Shown piece after piece: positions 754 to 8,249 of a stretch of DNA of 39,563 nt. The notes under the pieces were generated by a model that searched no databases, was not told the DNA's origin, and worked only from the letters and a program-made list of their open reading frames with translations. Origin of the DNA: Clostridia bacterium. GTDB taxonomy: Bacteria > Bacillota > Clostridia > Oscillospirales > UBA644. A program made the position numbers and the translations under genes. Positions within the stretch are counted from its first letter, which is position 1, and every line of letters begins with the position of its first letter. The stretch covers positions 1-39,563 of the forward strand of contig JAGAOB010000044.1 of NCBI GenBank assembly GCA_017623895.1, given 5' to 3'.

Positions 754-1437
754 TTATTTGCCCCAATAGGTAGCAAATGCAGAACGAGCGTCGTTACCGG
801 TGTTATCAGCCTGCAGGGCTTCCGCCTTAATGTTAATGCTGAAATTACCGTTGACGTACGCCATATCAGCCTGCTCGAACTCCCCGGGAATGGTGACGTT
901 GTTGAACACGACGGCCGTCTGATCCTCGGTCAGCTTATAGCGATAATAGTACGCATAAGTAACGCTGTTGTTCGCATAGGTGGTAGCAGAATCGTCTGCA
1001 TACCAAGCATTGCTGTCCACGTCCAGCCAGGTGCGAAGATCGGTGGTAATCCCCTGAGCCTTGCAAGCAGCATTGATGGTAGACCACTCGTCAAAGGTCA
1101 CGTACACGCGAATCCACTGATCGTAGTCGCCGGTATTCTCAACCGTGGGGTTCTTAGCGATCTTATCCCCGGGAGCAATCTCGGGATAGGTATTGCCTGC
1201 GTGGGTGATGACATTATCGCCATCGCCGTCGGCATCGGCGGTATCATCATCGTCGTTCTCGTTTTCCCAAACCTCTACCGAGAAATCGGGAGTACCGTCC
1301 CCATCGCTGTCGGCGATCAAGAACCGGTTGGTGATATCGTCGGTAGCATTAAACCAAGCCAAAGAGCCCAAAGAAAGAATCGCGATCAAGCAAATTGCCA
1401 GAGCTGCAACAAACACCTTTTTCTTTGTCATTTTCAT
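754..1437 (-). CDS. SipW-dependent secreted protein, acidic, TasA-like
   Basis: 227 aa. The start ATG at 1437 follows AAAGGAGG at good spacing. The N-terminus is basic and hydrophobic (KKKVFVAALAICLIAILSL) and ends in GSLAWFNATDDITNRF, the SipW-dependent export signature. Residues about 42-75 form a very acidic stretch (DSDGDGTPD, ENDDDDTADADGDGD) that resembles calcium-binding loops. The rest reads as a beta-rich domain with PTVENTGDYDQWIRVYVTF, the 'outside-in' strand pattern seen in camelysin/TasA folds. Expected role: exported matrix or surface protein processed by the adjacent SipW (1515-2333). The acidic repeat suggests calcium-dependent folding or assembly, which is inference. It lies between a SipW gene and another TasA-like gene, probably on one transcript. 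Confidence 0.78.
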   Translation of the reverse strand: MKMTKKKVFVAALAICLIAILSLGSLAWFNATDDITNRFLIADSDGDGTPDFSVEVWENENDDDDTADADGDGDNVITHAGNTYPEIAPGDKIAKNPTVENTGDYDQWIRVYVTFDEWSTINAACKAQGITTDLRTWLDVDSNAWYADDSATTYANNSVTYAYYYRYKLTEDQTAVVFNNVTIPGEFEQADMAYVNGNFSINIKAEALQADNTGNDARSAFATYWGK

Positions 1438-1514: not shown

Positions 1515-2333
1515 TCAGGATGGTTTCCCTTCGCGGGCAGATTCCGCGTCGTCCGTGACGCAGGCGCAAGCGCGAGGCGCGGCGGGAACGGAGGCTGGAG
1601 CCTCATCGGAGGCGCAGGGCGAAGTGGAGACAGGAGCCTCATCGGAGGCGCGAGGAGCGGTGGAGGGGGGAGCCTCATCGCAAGCGCGAGGCGCGGCGGG
1701 GGCTTCGGATTCTTTCGGGGCGTCGGGCGCCGAGAAGGTTTCGCGGCGCAGGCGCTCCATTTCGGCGCGGAGGCGTTGGTTTTCCTCGGAGACGGAATCC
1801 AATTCCGCCCGTACGGCGCAAGCCTCCCCGTCGGGGACGTCGTCCTTTTGCTTTCGGAGCAGATCGGGAAGAAAGACTGCCAGAATAAGCAATATTCCGA
1901 TCCCGATGGTAATATACATTCCCGGGGGGTGCTGAATGAAATCGGAAACGTAGCCCAGCTTGGGAATGGAGAATCGGGGTATTCCGATCACGTTCTTAAA
2001 ATGGACGGGCTCGCTGTCGGCAATATCGTTGGCGTCGCCCTTGGTATAGAATCGTTGGTGTTCCCCGTCCACCGAAACCACGCGATGGGTCGCTACTACC
2101 AGATCCTCGTTGAGGACGAAGGTGATAACGTCACCCTCCTTGATCGTGTTCACGTCCACAGCCTTGACGTAGATCAGATCTCCTACCTTATATTGGGGCT
2201 CCATACTACCGGAGATGACGGTATAGCATTTGTATCCCAACAGACGGGATCCCATCAAGAAAGCAGCGCAGATCACCATCAGCACCACAAGGACCGTAGT
2301 AAGAACGTTCCAGATTTTTTTCAGAGCTTTCAT
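1515..2333 (-). CDS. sipW: signal peptidase I, SipW/ER type, with repetitive C-terminal tail
   Basis: 272 aa from the ATG at 2333, which has AGGAGG eight bases upstream. An in-frame ATG at 2360 lies across that ribosome site and is unlikely to be used. One N-terminal membrane segment (about 10-28) is followed by the catalytic domain: ISGSMEP with nucleophile Ser43, ATHRVV with His83 in place of the bacterial Lys, and the acidic box TKGDANDIAD (about 98-105). The Ser/His pair marks the SipW/archaeal/ER branch, which processes TasA-like substrates. A second membrane segment spans about 138-157. Then come a short coiled coil (about 178-198) and a low-complexity Ala/Pro/Ser/Glu tail encoded by 36-bp tandem repeats. 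It sits between two predicted substrates. Confidence 0.88.
   Translation of the reverse strand: MKALKKIWNVLTTVLVVLMVICAAFLMGSRLLGYKCYTVISGSMEPQYKVGDLIYVKAVDVNTIKEGDVITFVLNEDLVVATHRVVSVDGEHQRFYTKGDANDIADSEPVHFKNVIGIPRFSIPKLGYVSDFIQHPPGMYITIGIGILLILAVFLPDLLRKQKDDVPDGEACAVRAELDSVSEENQRLRAEMERLRRETFSAPDAPKESEAPAAPRACDEAPPSTAPRASDEAPVSTSPCASDEAPASVPAAPRACACVTDDAESAREGKPS
1597..1704. repeat. 36-bp tandem repeat, three copies, in the 3' end of sipW
   Basis: Units begin at 1597, 1633 and 1669, each opening with GGAGCCTCATCG. The period is 12 codons and encodes the recurring (A)SDEAP motif of the peptidase tail. Because the unit is a multiple of three, copy-number change would keep the frame. Confidence 0.8.
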
Positions 2334-2439: not shown

Positions 2440-4614
2440 TCAGTGGTTGTTATAGATTACGTCTACGCCTTCGTAGGCCTTCAAGCCCTTAACGCCGTAC
2501 TGTGCTCCCCCAAAGATCTGATCGAAGGGAATCAGTTCGTTGTGGTGGGTGGTGCATTGGCTGTGGTCGTAATCCGCAGGAAGACCGCCGTAAGAATACC
2601 CGGGCTCTACCCGCATTCCTCGGCCGTTGTTATGACCGGGCGTAGGATCGCAGTAATGATAATTCGCCCAAGCGCCGTAGGTAACGGTTACGTTGGTGCA
2701 GTTGATATCATATTTGGTGGTATCGGGATAGTTGGCCCCGTCAATGGTTGTGGTTTCTTCCAGACGGCCGATAAGCATACCGCACATACGGTAGTTATAA
2801 TAATCGTAGGAAGCGGTGCAGTCGTTATAGACGTCCAAGCGGCAAGCAACGTCGACGTTTTCAAAGTTGTAGGTCGCTCCGGGCTCGCCCTGACCGACCA
2901 CGCCGCCGATAGAGCTGTCAAAGGAGCCCCAAAGGCCGGCAAGAACGACGTCTTCGGCGATGGTGATATTCTTGAAGGTGTAATTTCCGGCACCGGACCA
3001 GCCGATAATACCGCCGTTGCCGTTGTTGTACGTACCGAAATCGCTGTCCGCGATGGTAATATTTTCAAAGACGCAGTTTCCAGTGGCAGAGCCGGTGATT
3101 CCGCCCACGTCGCCGCCTTCGATGTAGCTTTCGGCGCCTTCAATAGTAAGATTCTTTACGGTTGCGTTGTTCAGATTACCGAACAAGCCGTAGGAGCCGT
3201 ATGCACCCCACTGGTAGCCCAGGTCCCAACCGTTTTGATAAAGGTTAGAGATGGTCTTTCCATTGCCGTCGAAAGTACCTTCAAAGGTTCCGTTCTTGGA
3301 ATGGTCTCCGATGGGACGGAAGGTCAAGGGATCGCCGTCGGCGGAGGGGGTGGTGTCTTCGCAGTAAAGATCCATATCTTTCGTCAGGGTAATGGTAACA
3401 CCCGCAAAGGTGGTGTCCCCCGTCACAAGCTCGGCAAGGCCTGCCAGCTGCTCTGCGGTATCCAAGAAAAATTCCGTATCGTTTTCGTTGTACCAAGAGG
3501 TGTCCGCCGTTCCGTCCCAAACGTCTGCGGTGCTGTAGGTCACGGAGAAGTTGCTGAACTCCTTGGTAATAAAGGTGATCGTTCCGCTGGCGGGATCGTA
3601 GGTGCCGGCCATCGGCTGACGGTTGTGATAGAGGGTCACAACGCCGTCCAGATTCTTTCCGATAAACAGTTGAACGGTCACGTCGGAATCGGCAACCTGA
3701 CCGCTGACCTTAATGTCGTAGGTGACGATCGTCGTTCCGTCTGGCAGCGTTGCCAAAAATTCGGAGGGCTCGGAGGTGGGCTTCACGTCAATGGAAACGT
3801 CACCGTTGGAAATTCCCGAAATGGAAAGGGTTTTCGCTTCGTTTTCATAGAAGAACGCTTGGTTCTGGGGTGCTACCGTTTCCTTGACGGGGTCAACCCA
3901 GTGGAAGCCGTTTTCGTACACGGCCTTATCGTCGTAATCCGAACCGAAGCTGTCGCTTTCCACGGTATCCTGGGTCGCCATCAGCGTAAGAGCAAATGTG
4001 ATCTCGGGAATGGCGTTGCCGCGGTAATTGGCCTCGTTGCCTACGCTTTCGGGCATCGTTACCACCAGGGCGATATAGTGGGATTTTCCGGGAAGCAGGG
4101 AAACGTTGGTTTTCAGATATTCACCCAGCTTCACGGTGGACGCAGCGGCAGTAGCACGTGCGGTGTCGCGCGTAAAGGCGGCAGGTGCGGCTTCGGCGGG
4201 TGCGGTGGCACCGAACTTTAGGATTTCGGAGAGCTTGATCTCCTTTCCGTCCTCGGTCAGACCCGTCGTCTCCTCAAAGGAAGAAACTGACAGGTTGTAC
4301 TGGAGCGCCAGTGATCCCTTATTGGTGATCTTCAGGTAGGCAACCTCGGTGTGTCCGGGCTCCCAAAGTCCTTTCGTTTCCCCGTCGGGAGCAACGAAAA
4401 GATCTTTCGCATCTTTTGCGGATCGATAGGTCCCGTCGGGAGCGTTGGCATATTCCATCTCAATTTTCAGATTCCCGGCGATAATTTTGTTGTTGCCGGA
4501 GACAACGCTGTCGGTAAACCAAGCAAAGGTAGTACCGACGAGCATCGAAACGCACATCAACAGGGAGATTGCACTAACGGCAAGAGCGCGCTTCGTCGTT
4601 TGCTGCTTTTTCAT
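2440..4614 (-). CDS. large SipW-dependent secreted protein with GLUG-like repeat region
   Basis: 724 aa. The start ATG at 4614 has AAAGGATG upstream. The N-terminus has a basic head, a hydrophobic core (LAVSAISLLMCVSMLVG) and TTFAWFTDSVVSGNNKI, the SipW-dependent signature. The first 200 or so residues form a TasA-like domain (LWEPGHTEVAYLKITNKGS) paralogous to the protein at 1-467. Residues about 230-360 look like beta-sandwich linkers. From about 365 on there is a GLUG-like beta-helix region: FEGTFDGNGKTISNL, YGLFGNLNNATVKNLTI, GGITG and GGIIGWSG. No LPXTG or membrane anchor is visible, so it is probably secreted or fibre-associated. Expected role: matrix fibre protein with an adhesive or spacer domain; the exact function is not known. 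Its leader carries the inverted-repeat element at 4641-4816. Confidence 0.82.
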   Translation of the reverse strand: MKKQQTTKRALAVSAISLLMCVSMLVGTTFAWFTDSVVSGNNKIIAGNLKIEMEYANAPDGTYRSAKDAKDLFVAPDGETKGLWEPGHTEVAYLKITNKGSLALQYNLSVSSFEETTGLTEDGKEIKLSEILKFGATAPAEAAPAAFTRDTARATAAASTVKLGEYLKTNVSLLPGKSHYIALVVTMPESVGNEANYRGNAIPEITFALTLMATQDTVESDSFGSDYDDKAVYENGFHWVDPVKETVAPQNQAFFYENEAKTLSISGISNGDVSIDVKPTSEPSEFLATLPDGTTIVTYDIKVSGQVADSDVTVQLFIGKNLDGVVTLYHNRQPMAGTYDPASGTITFITKEFSNFSVTYSTADVWDGTADTSWYNENDTEFFLDTAEQLAGLAELVTGDTTFAGVTITLTKDMDLYCEDTTPSADGDPLTFRPIGDHSKNGTFEGTFDGNGKTISNLYQNGWDLGYQWGAYGSYGLFGNLNNATVKNLTIEGAESYIEGGDVGGITGSATGNCVFENITIADSDFGTYNNGNGGIIGWSGAGNYTFKNITIAEDVVLAGLWGSFDSSIGGVVGQGEPGATYNFENVDVACRLDVYNDCTASYDYYNYRMCGMLIGRLEETTTIDGANYPDTTKYDINCTNVTVTYGAWANYHYCDPTPGHNNGRGMRVEPGYSYGGLPADYDHSQCTTHHNELIPFDQIFGGAQYGVKGLKAYEGVDVIYNNH

Positions 4615-5031: not shown

Positions 5032-5772
5032 TCAGCTCGGATTTTCGGTCAGAGCTTCTTCTTTGGGTTCTTCCGATTTGTTTTGTTCCGTTTCGTCCGA
5101 GACAGGAGCAGGCTCCAGCTGTGCCTTGAGCGCCTTCAGCTCCTCCAGCATTTTTGCGTTTTCCGCTCGTTCCGCTTCGATTTTCTTTCGCTCTTCCTCC
5201 ATTTCCTCCATCTGTTCCTTTTTGTAACGGCGGAACAAATTGAGGAATTTGACACCCTCGTAAAGAATAATTAACATAAAGGGTGTGAAGATGCAAACGA
5301 AATATCCGGGGGTCGTTTTCAGAAAATTGAAAAACGTTCCCAAGCCCGGAACGTGGGCTTCGTATCGACCCAGAACGTAAGGATCGGTAACAATGGTGTC
5401 ATCGTCGACACCCGTAGTGGTACCGTAGGTAATAAATCCCCGATTCCCCTCCGCGTCCACCGTAATTTTCCGGATCTTGTGGGTGATCGTCTCCCCAAAG
5501 CTTTCGGTGTCCTGGGAAAGGAAGGAAATCACGTCTCCCTCCTTTAGATCGGAAGGATTGACCTCCTTAACGAAAATCAGTGCTCCTGCGCGGAAATCCG
5601 TTGCGGCCATAGAGTCGGAATTGACGATATACATCTTATATCCGAACAGGCTGCGGTCGTTGCGATTAAAGGGGGTCACGGAAATCACCGTGAAAATCAT
5701 CATAAACACTGCAGACAACACCACCAGCCACACTACCGTGGTCTTCAGTACGTTCCATACTTTTTTCATCAT
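5032..5772 (-). CDS. sipW: signal peptidase I, SipW/ER type
   Basis: 246 aa; ATG at 5772 with GAGGAGGGGG upstream, two bases after the TetR stop codon, so the two genes are cotranscribed. There is an N-terminal membrane segment (about 11-32). The catalytic region has YIVNSDSMAATDF with Ser54 as probable nucleophile and ETITHKIRKI with His98, the Ser/His pair of the SipW branch; the acidic box near 115-125 (TYGTTTGVDDD) is weakly conserved. A second membrane segment (about 156-178) is followed by a long charged coiled coil (about 184-222, KKEQMEEMEEERKKIEAER) and an acidic tail. It is a divergent paralogue of the peptidase at 1515-2333. A cluster with two SipW enzymes suggests separate substrate sets or a complex held by the coiled coils; both are inferences. 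Confidence 0.85.
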   Translation of the reverse strand: MMKKVWNVLKTTVVWLVVLSAVFMMIFTVISVTPFNRNDRSLFGYKMYIVNSDSMAATDFRAGALIFVKEVNPSDLKEGDVISFLSQDTESFGETITHKIRKITVDAEGNRGFITYGTTTGVDDDTIVTDPYVLGRYEAHVPGLGTFFNFLKTTPGYFVCIFTPFMLIILYEGVKFLNLFRRYKKEQMEEMEEERKKIEAERAENAKMLEELKALKAQLEPAPVSDETEQNKSEEPKEEALTENPS

Positions 5773-5773
5773 A

Positions 5774-6367
5774 TCAGACGTCCCCCTCCTCTGTTCTAAA
5801 ATATTGCTTTACCGACGCATAAATGACTCGAAATACGTGCTCGGAATAATGATCCTCCCGTGGCATCTGCTCGTTGTGGACCATCACTGCGAAGGCGAGC
5901 ATCACGTGCAAAATATGATTCAAAATCATCCACACGTCCGCCTCGTCCTTAAAGGCGGGTCGAAAGGTCTGTACAAGAGGATCGAACCTGCGCTTGTGAT
6001 CCTCGGCGGAATACTTTGTAAAATACGGCGAATAATAATACCGCACGAAGGCAATGCATTTTTCCCGACTCCCCAACAAGAACTTCCAAAGAGCCTCGAA
6101 ATATACTCTGCATCGCAAATCGAATTCCGGCTCGGGGAGATACATTACCTCCACGTACTGCATCGTCTTTTCCGCAAGCTCCTCATCCAACGTCGTAAAG
6201 GCTTGGGCCAGAAGATCCTCCTTGTCGGAAAAAAGGCGATAAATGTATCCCTCGTTGATCCCTGTTCCCGTGGTGATCGCCTTGGTCGTGGTCTTGTCAA
6301 GACCCTCGGTTGCAATCACCGTAACGGCTCTTGCCAGCAACGTTTCCCGCATATCCTGCGGACTCAT
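5774..6367 (-). CDS. TetR/AcrR family transcriptional regulator
   Basis: 197 aa from the ATG at 6367, which follows GAGAGGGGG; an upstream in-frame codon has no ribosome site. The N-terminal helix-turn-helix reads ARAVTVIATEGLDKTTTKAI then GINEGYIYRLFSDKEDLLAQAF, the classic TetR pattern (about residues 12-57). The remaining helical part, rich in aromatic residues (FVRYYYSPYFTKY), would be the ligand and dimer domain. The ligand is unknown. As first gene of the matrix cluster, abutting sipW, it probably controls its own operon and the secreted proteins. An inverted repeat TCGCT-N5-AGCGA at 6394-6408, between the proposed -35 and -10, is a candidate operator. Confidence 0.88.
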   Translation of the reverse strand: MSPQDMRETLLARAVTVIATEGLDKTTTKAITTGTGINEGYIYRLFSDKEDLLAQAFTTLDEELAEKTMQYVEVMYLPEPEFDLRCRVYFEALWKFLLGSREKCIAFVRYYYSPYFTKYSAEDHKRRFDPLVQTFRPAFKDEADVWMILNHILHVMLAFAVMVHNEQMPREDHYSEHVFRVIYASVKQYFRTEEGDV

Positions 6368-6485: not shown

Positions 6486-6508
6486 TTTTCACAGAGTTCA
6501 CCCCTCTG
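6486..6508 (+). repeat. putative recombinase core site A
   Basis: Contains CAGAGTTCACCCCTCTG: 5-bp inverted arms CAGAG/CTCTG around a 7-bp asymmetric centre TTCACCC, as in tyrosine recombinase core sites. Shares 22 bp with site B in the same orientation, 101 bp away, and 22 of 23 bp with the inverted site C. Lies about 120 bp upstream of the tetR start. Confidence 0.7.
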
Positions 6509-6530
6509 ATTGATAGGCAATCATCAAAAG

Positions 6531-6582
6531 CGTTTGCAAATCTCCCACCTTTCCAAAAAATCGAAAAAAGCCCTTGCAAACG
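6531..6582. repeat. 9-bp inverted repeat between sites A and B
   Basis: CGTTTGCAA (6531-6539) and TTGCAAACG (6574-6582) are exact reverse complements separated by 34 bp. Candidate arm or accessory protein site for the recombinase, or a weak hairpin. Confidence 0.45.
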
Positions 6583-6587
6583 GCGGG

Positions 6588-6609
6588 TTTCACAGAGTTC
6601 ACCCCTCTG
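6588..6609 (+). repeat. putative recombinase core site B
   Basis: Identical over 22 bp to site A and in the same orientation, directly left of the integrase leader. The 7-bp centre TTCACCC is conserved. Confidence 0.7.
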
Positions 6610-6827
6610 CGGGATTGTATTTTACCACAAAACCGCTGTTTTTGCAAGAGGTTTTTGAGAAAAAACCGAAATTGTCACAAAAAGGTTGCATTTCAATGAA
6701 AAAAACTCCTCTGTTTACAAGGTTTTTTCGAGACATTTCACACAATTCGCCGTCAAAAGCCCCGTCAAAAAAGACGATGCTTTTCACCAATATACACCCA
6801 CGGAAATAGAATAAGGAGGACAACATT

Positions 6828-7949
6828 ATGTCTAAAAAAGGAGAAAACATTTACAAGCGCAAGGACGGAAGATGGGAAGCACGGTACATCAAAGGCTATC
6901 GCTCCGACAATCTTCCGCGATACGGGTACTGCTATGCACCGTCCTATCGGGAGGTGAAGCAAAAGGTCTGTGCAGCTCGAGCGGCAATGACCTCGGGGAA
7001 TTCCTCCCAAACGGTATTTAAGAAGCGTCGCTTTGCATATTATTGTGACGAGTGGCTTCAGTTGAACCGCGATCGGGTCAAGGAATCGACCTACGTAAAA
7101 TATTGCGGGATGGTGGAAAAGCACATCAAGCCTCGGCTGGGAGGATTTCTCGTGCAGGGGCTGTCCTCGGTGGTGATCGCACAATTCAGCCACGATCTTC
7201 TGTGCGAGGAGGAATTATCCCCCAAGACCGTAAAGGATCTTTTGACGGCTCTTCGCGCGATTCTGAATTATACGGGGAAGCACTTTCCCGAGCCGTTGCC
7301 CCCCATCGAGATCGTGCATCCCAAAATTCCTCGCAGAGAAATGAGGGTTCTGACCAAGGAGGAGCAACGACTCTTCGTCGGTTTTTTGCTCCACGACACG
7401 GACGAATATAAATTCGGCGTGTTACTGTCCTTGCTTACGGGAATGCGCATCGGTGAGATCTGTGCTCTGCAATGGAAGGACGTATCTCTTTCGGAAAAGA
7501 CCATCACCGTCCGATCTACGATGCAGCGGCTGCGGGACCTTGACGACGCAGGAGAAAACAAGACCAAGGTGATCATCAGTGAGCCGAAAAGCGAGACCTC
7601 CGCCCGAATCATCCCCCTGACGGAGCCTCTGACGGCGTTATGCCGTGCCCGTTGGTGCGAGGCTCCCGAAGCGTTTCTTTTGACGGGGAGCAGAGATCGG
7701 TATATCGAGCCTCGGATGATGCAATACAAAATGGAGCGCTTTACCGCCGAATGCGGCTTGGAGGGCGTCCACTTTCATACGTTGCGCCACACCTTTGCCA
7801 CGCGTTGCGTGGAGGTGGATTTTGAAATCAAATCCTTGAGCGAGATTCTAGGGCACTCCAGCCCCCGCATCACCCTGGAGCGCTACGTTCACTCCTCGAT
7901 GGAGCTGAAGCGGGACAATATGAACAAGCTTCCCGCTATCGGCTTTTAA
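6828..7949 (+). CDS. tyrosine-type site-specific recombinase (integrase)
   Basis: 373 aa; ATG at 6828 follows AAGGAGG. Residues about 1-55 form an arm-type DNA-binding domain of the kind found in Tn916-like integrases (IYKRKDGRWEARY). A SAM-like core-binding domain spans about 65-150, and the catalytic domain about 170-365. All catalytic residues are present: Arg207 (TGMRIGE), Lys254 (EPKSETS), His317-Arg320 (HTLRHTFA), His343 (LGHSS) and Tyr353 (LERYVH), so the enzyme should be active. No excisionase, relaxase or phage genes are nearby, so it is not part of a recognisable integrated element. It is enclosed by near-identical 22-23 bp sites, two direct on the left and one inverted on the right, which suggests a DNA-inversion system. 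Confidence 0.92.
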   Translation: MSKKGENIYKRKDGRWEARYIKGYRSDNLPRYGYCYAPSYREVKQKVCAARAAMTSGNSSQTVFKKRRFAYYCDEWLQLNRDRVKESTYVKYCGMVEKHIKPRLGGFLVQGLSSVVIAQFSHDLLCEEELSPKTVKDLLTALRAILNYTGKHFPEPLPPIEIVHPKIPRREMRVLTKEEQRLFVGFLLHDTDEYKFGVLLSLLTGMRIGEICALQWKDVSLSEKTITVRSTMQRLRDLDDAGENKTKVIISEPKSETSARIIPLTEPLTALCRARWCEAPEAFLLTGSRDRYIEPRMMQYKMERFTAECGLEGVHFHTLRHTFATRCVEVDFEIKSLSEILGHSSPRITLERYVHSSMELKRDNMNKLPAIGF

Positions 7950-8024
7950 TTTATCCGCCGTCAAAACCCTCCGTCTCCCGAGAGAAAAAGTCCTTATACC
8001 ACGGGAACGCTTCGCCTCGGGAAG

Positions 8025-8047
8025 CAGAGGGGTGAACTCTGCGAAAA
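8025..8047 (-). repeat. putative recombinase core site C (inverted)
   Basis: On the plus strand CAGAGGGGTGAACTCTG followed by CGAAAA. Its reverse complement matches site A at 22 of 23 bases, with an identical 7-bp centre. It lies 75 bp after the integrase stop, opposite in orientation to A and B. Confidence 0.7.
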
Positions 8048-8070: not shown

Positions 8071-8128
8071 AAAAAAAGAAACCCCCGTCGAGGGTGCAGA
8101 AGGATTCTGCGTTCCCGACGGGGGTCTT
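8071..8128. terminator. hairpin terminator after the integrase, U-run on the minus side
   Basis: A 10-bp stem ACCCCCGTCG (8081-8090)/CGACGGGGGT (8116-8125) with an inner GCAGAA/TTCTGC hairpin. The plus side has only TCTTT, while the minus side has a long T-rich run (A7GAAA on plus, 8071-8080), so it should stop minus-strand transcription better than integrase transcripts. Confidence 0.6.
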
Positions 8129-8220
8129 TGCGTATTTCCGTTTTTGGGCGGTGCAAAAGGGCGTCGCGGAGGGTTGCAACAGGTGGAGACGGGGGAAAAG
8201 CGAAATTTTTATGAACTATC

Positions 8221-8249
8221 TTGACATTGCTCTTAAAATAAGGTATAAT
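8221..8249 (+). promoter_or_regulatory. sigma-A promoter of rpsF-ssb-rpsR
   Basis: TTGACA (8221-8226), 17 bp, TATAAT (8244-8249): both boxes match consensus exactly. Confidence 0.92.

Follow-up and report, generated by a model that had tools for sequence, protein, structure and literature searches.

A tyrosine recombinase cassette with inverted sites and an outward promoter, very probably invertible, beside a SipW matrix operon of a Clostridia bacterium

In the H segment of Salmonella, the recombinase gene hin lies inside the DNA that is inverted, and an outward promoter is ON in one orientation; Hin has been cited as an example of a recombinase within an invertible segment (PMC5903667). The locus described here likewise has a recombinase gene and an outward promoter between inverted sites. 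Whereas Hin is a serine recombinase (Resolvase domain), the enzyme here is a tyrosine recombinase (PF00589) of the phage/ICE type with candidate arm-type sites, and the locus therefore does not meet the criterion for a Hin-type serine invertase. Its logic is Hin-like, but the enzyme is a tyrosine recombinase.

Several other described systems share part of this arrangement. Inverton group 139 and tyrosine invertase group 35, also from Clostridia, combine a tyrosine recombinase with an adjoining invertible segment (PMC11892184). The two group-139 invertons for which coordinates are given are ~255 bp long, so their recombinase sits outside the segment, unlike in the present cassette. These invertons may be related to the family described here, perhaps as a sister arrangement, and one of our relatives (L065) shares the adjacent layout, with an inverted site pair ~0.4 kb apart (L065:6212-6628) that lies entirely downstream of the related recombinase and leaves the gene outside the inverton. 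The Cdi switches of C. difficile (cwpV and cmrRST; PMC5903667, PMC6837544) likewise place surface and behaviour genes of a Clostridial species under invertible regulation, and are described as short invertible segments. C. difficile RecV is encoded away from the Cdi segments. Integrases of the Tn916/Tn1549 type have the same integrase fold, but the present locus lacks a transposon, has an inverted site pair around its gene and is proposed to yield an inversion. The median number of invertons has been put at 3 per Clostridia-like genome and 0 per Bacillus-like genome, and invertons of Firmicutes seem fewer than those of Bacteroidota (PMC11892184). In the open-access literature searched, we found no description of the present cassette family and nothing linking TasA/SipW or WxL genes to an invertible tyrosine recombinase switch.

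Sites, recombinase and flanking operons

We analysed a window of 39,563 nucleotides, the whole of contig JAGAOB010000044.1 of a Clostridia bacterium from the gut (Table 1). An initial annotation, made from sequence alone, had described three sites around an integrase gene, A and B in direct orientation and C inverted. This held: the 17-bp core CAGAG-TTCACCC-CTCTG is exact at all three, and A and B are perfect 22-bp direct repeats. The spacings it gave also held (A–B, 101 bp; A–C, ~1.5 kb; B–C, ~1.4 kb), and its 5-bp arms and 7-bp centre were refined, as the full site is longer than the core, with ~11-bp arms around a 5-nt centre (TTTCRCAGAGT-TCACC-CCTCTGC). The chance expectation for the core in the window, at <=3 mismatches, is 0.07, and no shuffle reached three sites. 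In a scan of the whole 1.5-Mb assembly, exact copies of the core were found at A, B and C only; three other matches each had 3 mismatches (the reversed-pattern control gave 1), and the arms with any centre occurred only at A, B and C at <=1 mismatch. A repeat scattered through the genome without an integrase, which the initial annotation had said would refute its reading, is thereby ruled out.

The bases flanking A on its outer side and B on its inner side match those of C, as if the 101-bp A–B unit had been inserted later into a single ancestral left site, a possibility that rests on only a few bases. Within this unit (6509-6592), the leader of tetR contains an inverted repeat (CGTTTGCAA...TTGCAAACG) that could be a TetR operator or attenuator; folding of the tetR leader RNA was not unusual (z -1.0). 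The tandem sites of one relative, L062, are likewise 101 bp apart.

The catalytic residues of the recombinase (R207, K254, H317, R320, H343 and Y353), previously annotated as intact, form a complete set and are invariant in 23 aligned family members. With R-K-H-R-H-Y within its PF00589 domain, the protein meets the criterion for the tyrosine recombinase/phage integrase family. Its nearest solved structure by sequence is Tn1549 Int (6en0/6emz), and in the family alignment its N-terminus is basic and near-invariant (KKGENIYKRKDGRWEAR); no match to a Pfam arm-binding domain was found. The claim that mobile-element genes are absent also held, in that no excisionase, relaxase or phage genes were found beside the integrase; the genes identified beside the cassette are tetR/SipW/matrix genes and rpsF-ssb only.

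The tetR gene, both SipW genes and both matrix genes lie to the left of the cassette and all read leftward, meeting the criterion for a SipW-TasA/BsaA matrix operon (a SipW peptidase with SipW-dependent substrates). The TetR and SipW identities given earlier held (PF00440; NCBIfam signal peptidase I). The label 'TasA' failed in name, and 'SipW-dependent/camelysin-like matrix protein' (TIGR04088) is better. Rightward from int, site C is followed by a strong hairpin, then by a promoter that matches the sigma-70 consensus perfectly (8221-8249) and finally by a ribosomal-protein/ssb operon, which we take to be rpsF-ssb-rpsR (gene names by reading; ssb is conserved in 18 of 20 genomes of the family, which confirms its identity). 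In two genomes of the same genus (G017 and G018), homology to the window begins at 8201, on the rpsF-ssb side, with ssb-region DNA 89% and 82% identical to the window. The cassette, the matrix operon and the terminator are all missing to the left of rpsF-ssb in both. Because they are missing jointly, module and targets appear to be gained and lost as one.

Table 1 Features of the cassette and its predicted target operon in the window
Feature	Coordinates	Strand	Evidence
BsaA-like SipW-dependent matrix protein	754..1437	-	TIGR04088 over cut-off; TIGR04090 7e-7, under cut-off
Second SipW-type signal peptidase	1515..2333	-	TIGR02228 1e-30
Large SipW-dependent matrix/surface protein	2440..4614	-	TIGR04088 over cut-off; camelysin-like N-terminus slightly under cut-off
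SipW-type signal peptidase I	5032..5772	-	TIGR02228 over cut-off
tetR, first gene of predicted target operon	5774..6367	-	PF00440 6e-10
Site A, target-side outer copy	6487..6513 (core 6492-6508)	+	22-mer identical in B, 17-bp core also in C
Site B, promoter-proximal	6588..6614 (core 6593-6609)	+	Exact repeat; site alignment of related loci
Outward promoter TTGCAA-N17-TAAAAT, extended -10 TG, facing tetR	6619..6647	-	Same element in 68/69 cassettes
Candidate arm-type repeats GCCGTCA(AAA), exact and degenerate copy 12-13 bp apart	6749..6771	+	Cassette enrichment
Tyrosine recombinase (int), 373 aa, intact	6828..7949	+	PF00589 2e-23; PF14659 1e-8
Candidate arm-type repeat after int, direct orientation	7957..7966	+	Cassette enrichment
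Site C, inverted partner	8020..8046 (core 8025-8041)	-	Exact 17-bp core; site alignment of related loci
Strong hairpin/terminator, non-target side, beyond site C	8082..8125	+	dG -33.3, z -4.6

Conserved architecture among relatives

Scanning 84,980 species genomes yielded 79 loci in Clostridia and Enterococcus, with recombinases 34-70% identical; within the window's own order, 39 of 295 genomes have a recombinase relative at E <= 1e-60. The initial annotation had proposed searching related genomes for sites around the integrase, and site pairs were found to flank nearly every related integrase. The pair is inverted in almost all relatives, with one site ~200-280 bp upstream of the start codon and the other mostly 70-130 bp past the stop, and the aligned family site reads TTTCGCAGAGT-N5-ACTCTGCGAAA. 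All 51 aligned Clostridial loci, the window counted in, have an inverted pair with the same centre around the recombinase. These loci have 42 distinct 5-nt centres, none palindromic and each identical inside its pair, and random re-pairing of the sites (2000 re-pairings) produced at most 7 centre matches. Selection of pairs by their similarity does not explain this pattern: when left and right sites were picked independently by their arms alone, with the centre ignored, 49 of 52 still matched, and the three mismatches look like chance sites. The majority of extra order-level loci from another genome set (L099-L125) agree; among these, L100, L102, L103, L105 and L109 duplicate earlier loci and are not independent. 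Tyrosine recombinase strand exchange requires matched centres, and arms are conserved for protein binding. Conserved arms around a centre that is free to vary but matched within pairs thus fit sites that exchange strands only with a partner of the same centre.

No recognisable site pair was found in a few relatives (for example, L050, L052, L054 and L061). L042 was rejected as an exception, its site pair being present, and L053, with long inverted duplications around its cassette, looks like an assembly artefact. L034 and L036 are recent paralogues in one genome, 84% identical in DNA, with centres GGAGC and GGATC; these centres differ as if insulating the paralogues from each other, which is no more than a possibility. 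L021 and L022 are tandem cassettes ~10 kb apart in one genome, with unlike centres, and each is followed by its own ~1150-aa repeat surface protein.

Though largely correct, the initial annotation was incomplete: it overlooked the outward promoter, the arm-type repeats and the terminators, and it recognised neither how broad the family is nor which orientation is likely to be ON. Just within the site at the recombinase start, an outward-aimed promoter with the consensus TTGnnn-N17-TATAAT was found in 68 of 69 cassettes under one fixed rule (shuffled mean 10.1, maximum 17), compared with 5, 2 and 8 of 69 when the same rule was applied to the other three positions and directions. Its usual form is TTGCAA/TTGACA-N17-TATAAT, frequently with an extended -10, and L045 is the sole cassette without it under the rule used. 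Of 32 loci, 30 had a terminator-like hairpin just beyond the site on the non-target side, compared with only 12 that had one on the target side (Fisher p 3e-6). The motif GCCGTCA occurs at 5.5 per kb of non-coding cassette DNA versus 0.19 per kb outside (29-fold), nearly always oriented like int, before its start and past its stop, and often as pairs with copies 12-13 bp apart. This enrichment and the near-invariant basic N-terminus suggest that the repeats may be arm-type sites of a heterobivalent integrase, a tentative inference for which there are no binding data and no Pfam arm-binding match.

On the predicted target side, other relatives encode giant repeat, S-layer-homology and DUF7601 surface proteins, sugar-nucleotide and polysaccharide enzymes, and Hsp70. 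The Enterococcus cassettes (L077-L091), whose core arms differ, precede a winged-helix regulator and a WxL/LPXTG operon. All of them are in the predicted OFF orientation, and several have a Mga-type regulator on the opposite side. Relatives on viral contigs (36-46% identity) mostly keep paired sites, and several adjoin defence-like genes, including HerA/DUF87, a PLD-Snf2 helicase and NACHT/HamA-like genes; phase-variable anti-phage defence is a possibility there. Such neighbours lie at L134:6415-9669, L126:3081-6260, L136:1343-4489 and L139:602-3016. In these distant relatives the target side was assigned by position only. More ordinary phage integrases (L140, L143-L148 and L150; 32-38% identity) mostly lack paired sites.

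Cassette orientation between genomes

The tetR/SipW/matrix operon is on the left and divergent in the window, L015, L016, L020, L029, L030, L044 and L046, and on the right and co-directional in L013, L017, L019, L023, L024, L026, L032, L062 and L076. On a recombinase tree limited to loci whose target side had been assigned (n = 37), orientation changed 11 times (shuffled-label mean 12.0), and well-supported (starred) branches require no fewer than 7 changes. On this tree, target side is random with respect to recombinase phylogeny. Between L051 and L072, the cassettes are 95% identical and collinear, and both outer flanks, ~92% identical, are exchanged and inverted (4460 and 256 bp). The breakpoints fall in the sites, the switch occurring inside TTCGCAGAATTCACCC. 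This pair shows cassette inversion by comparison of relatives; there are no reads for this isolate. Both orientations are therefore found in nature among relatives, not in this isolate, and the inverted sites flank a promoter. MAG assemblies record the majority orientation only.

L013, L015 and L076 have cassettes with 93-95% identity but tetR flanks with just 72%, a gap that hints at possible cassette transfer. In Enterococcus relatives the target gene is always on the same side, and inversion there may be rare or biased.

Predicted mechanism and alternative readings

We consider it very likely that the segment from A/B to C is a self-contained invertible promoter cassette, as the mechanism of the family and, in kind, of this copy. 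A self-inverting switch of the matrix operon, as initially annotated, is supported comparatively because the sites form inverted same-centre pairs, operons lie on either side and one close pair shows inversion; flipping in the isolate and an effect on expression are unobserved. The recombinase would bind the 11-bp core arms, and probably the GCCGTCA repeats too, and recombination of the left site (B or A) with C would invert its own gene together with the outward promoter near B. In the present orientation, the promoter would fire leftward through B and A into tetR-sipW-matrix-sipW-matrix, and since it is aimed at these genes the sequenced state is predicted to be ON. Once inverted, it would direct transcription rightward, where the terminator at 8082-8125 would stop it and shield rpsF-ssb-rpsR; this state is predicted to be OFF. 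The polarity is read from the outward promoter and the non-target-side terminators; like the assignment of the promoter as the operon's own and the effect of orientation on expression, it is inferred, without expression data. Established are the sites, the promoter element, the terminators, their family-wide conservation, both orientations and one inversion between close genomes. Recombinase activity and flipping in this isolate are likely but unobserved, as there are no reads. Without read-level data, a slow or locked switch remains possible, as does regulation of the operon dominated by TetR.

The alternative that survives best, though unlikely, is that the family is a true switch and the window copy is locked in one orientation. 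Only a single assembled orientation is available; against this reading, the reading frame, catalytic residues and perfect 17-bp cores are all intact.

Two further readings are very unlikely. The locus could be one end of an integrative element or prophage that has since decayed, with the repeats as att sites and inversion as a by-product. The recombinase is indeed a phage/ICE-type integrase, with Tn1549 Int as its closest structure, and the block left of rpsF, missing in two same-genus genomes, might have arrived as an island. However, the sites around the integrase are inverted, not direct, so the criterion of direct att sites for an ICE or prophage is not met; no excisionase, relaxase or phage genes adjoin it; and the layout, with its promoter aimed outward, is kept in dozens of unrelated loci while ordinary phage integrases mostly lack it. 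Alternatively, the polarity could be opposite, with the co-directional state ON and the operon read through from the recombinase promoter. A flipped recombinase would face tetR, and no obvious terminator follows int in the window. Against this, the sole conserved strong promoter faces away from int, a terminator-like hairpin lies directly after int, within the cassette, in 14 of 32 relatives, and the outside terminators cluster on the non-target side.

That the recombinase acts chiefly on direct repeats (A x B), deleting or capturing the DNA between them, with the inverted copy incidental, is all but excluded: A and B are perfect direct repeats and other relatives have tandem sites too, but these are a minority, nearly all relatives have the inverted partner, and A–B looks like a later insertion into an ancestral left site.

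Returning to the invertible cassette, a bolder reading, towards which we lean slightly, is that mobile, plug-in, self-flipping promoter cassettes are common to Clostridia, Enterococcus and viral contigs. Their variable 5-nt centres would serve as barcodes insulating co-resident cassettes, alongside direct-repeat arm sites and an outward promoter, and they would have been recruited repeatedly to surface, polysaccharide, chaperone and possibly anti-phage genes.

We infer that surveys of short invertons may miss such cassettes because the recombinase gene lengthens the segment to ~1.5 kb. The sequence rule of the family finds candidate phase-variable genes in Firmicutes and predicts the ON/OFF state of a locus from its assembly. 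The family also provides a compact inversion switch that needs one gene and takes its specificity from matched centres. In gut Firmicutes, these findings suggest, one transferable module switches biofilm-matrix operons, WxL surface operons and perhaps defence genes as well.
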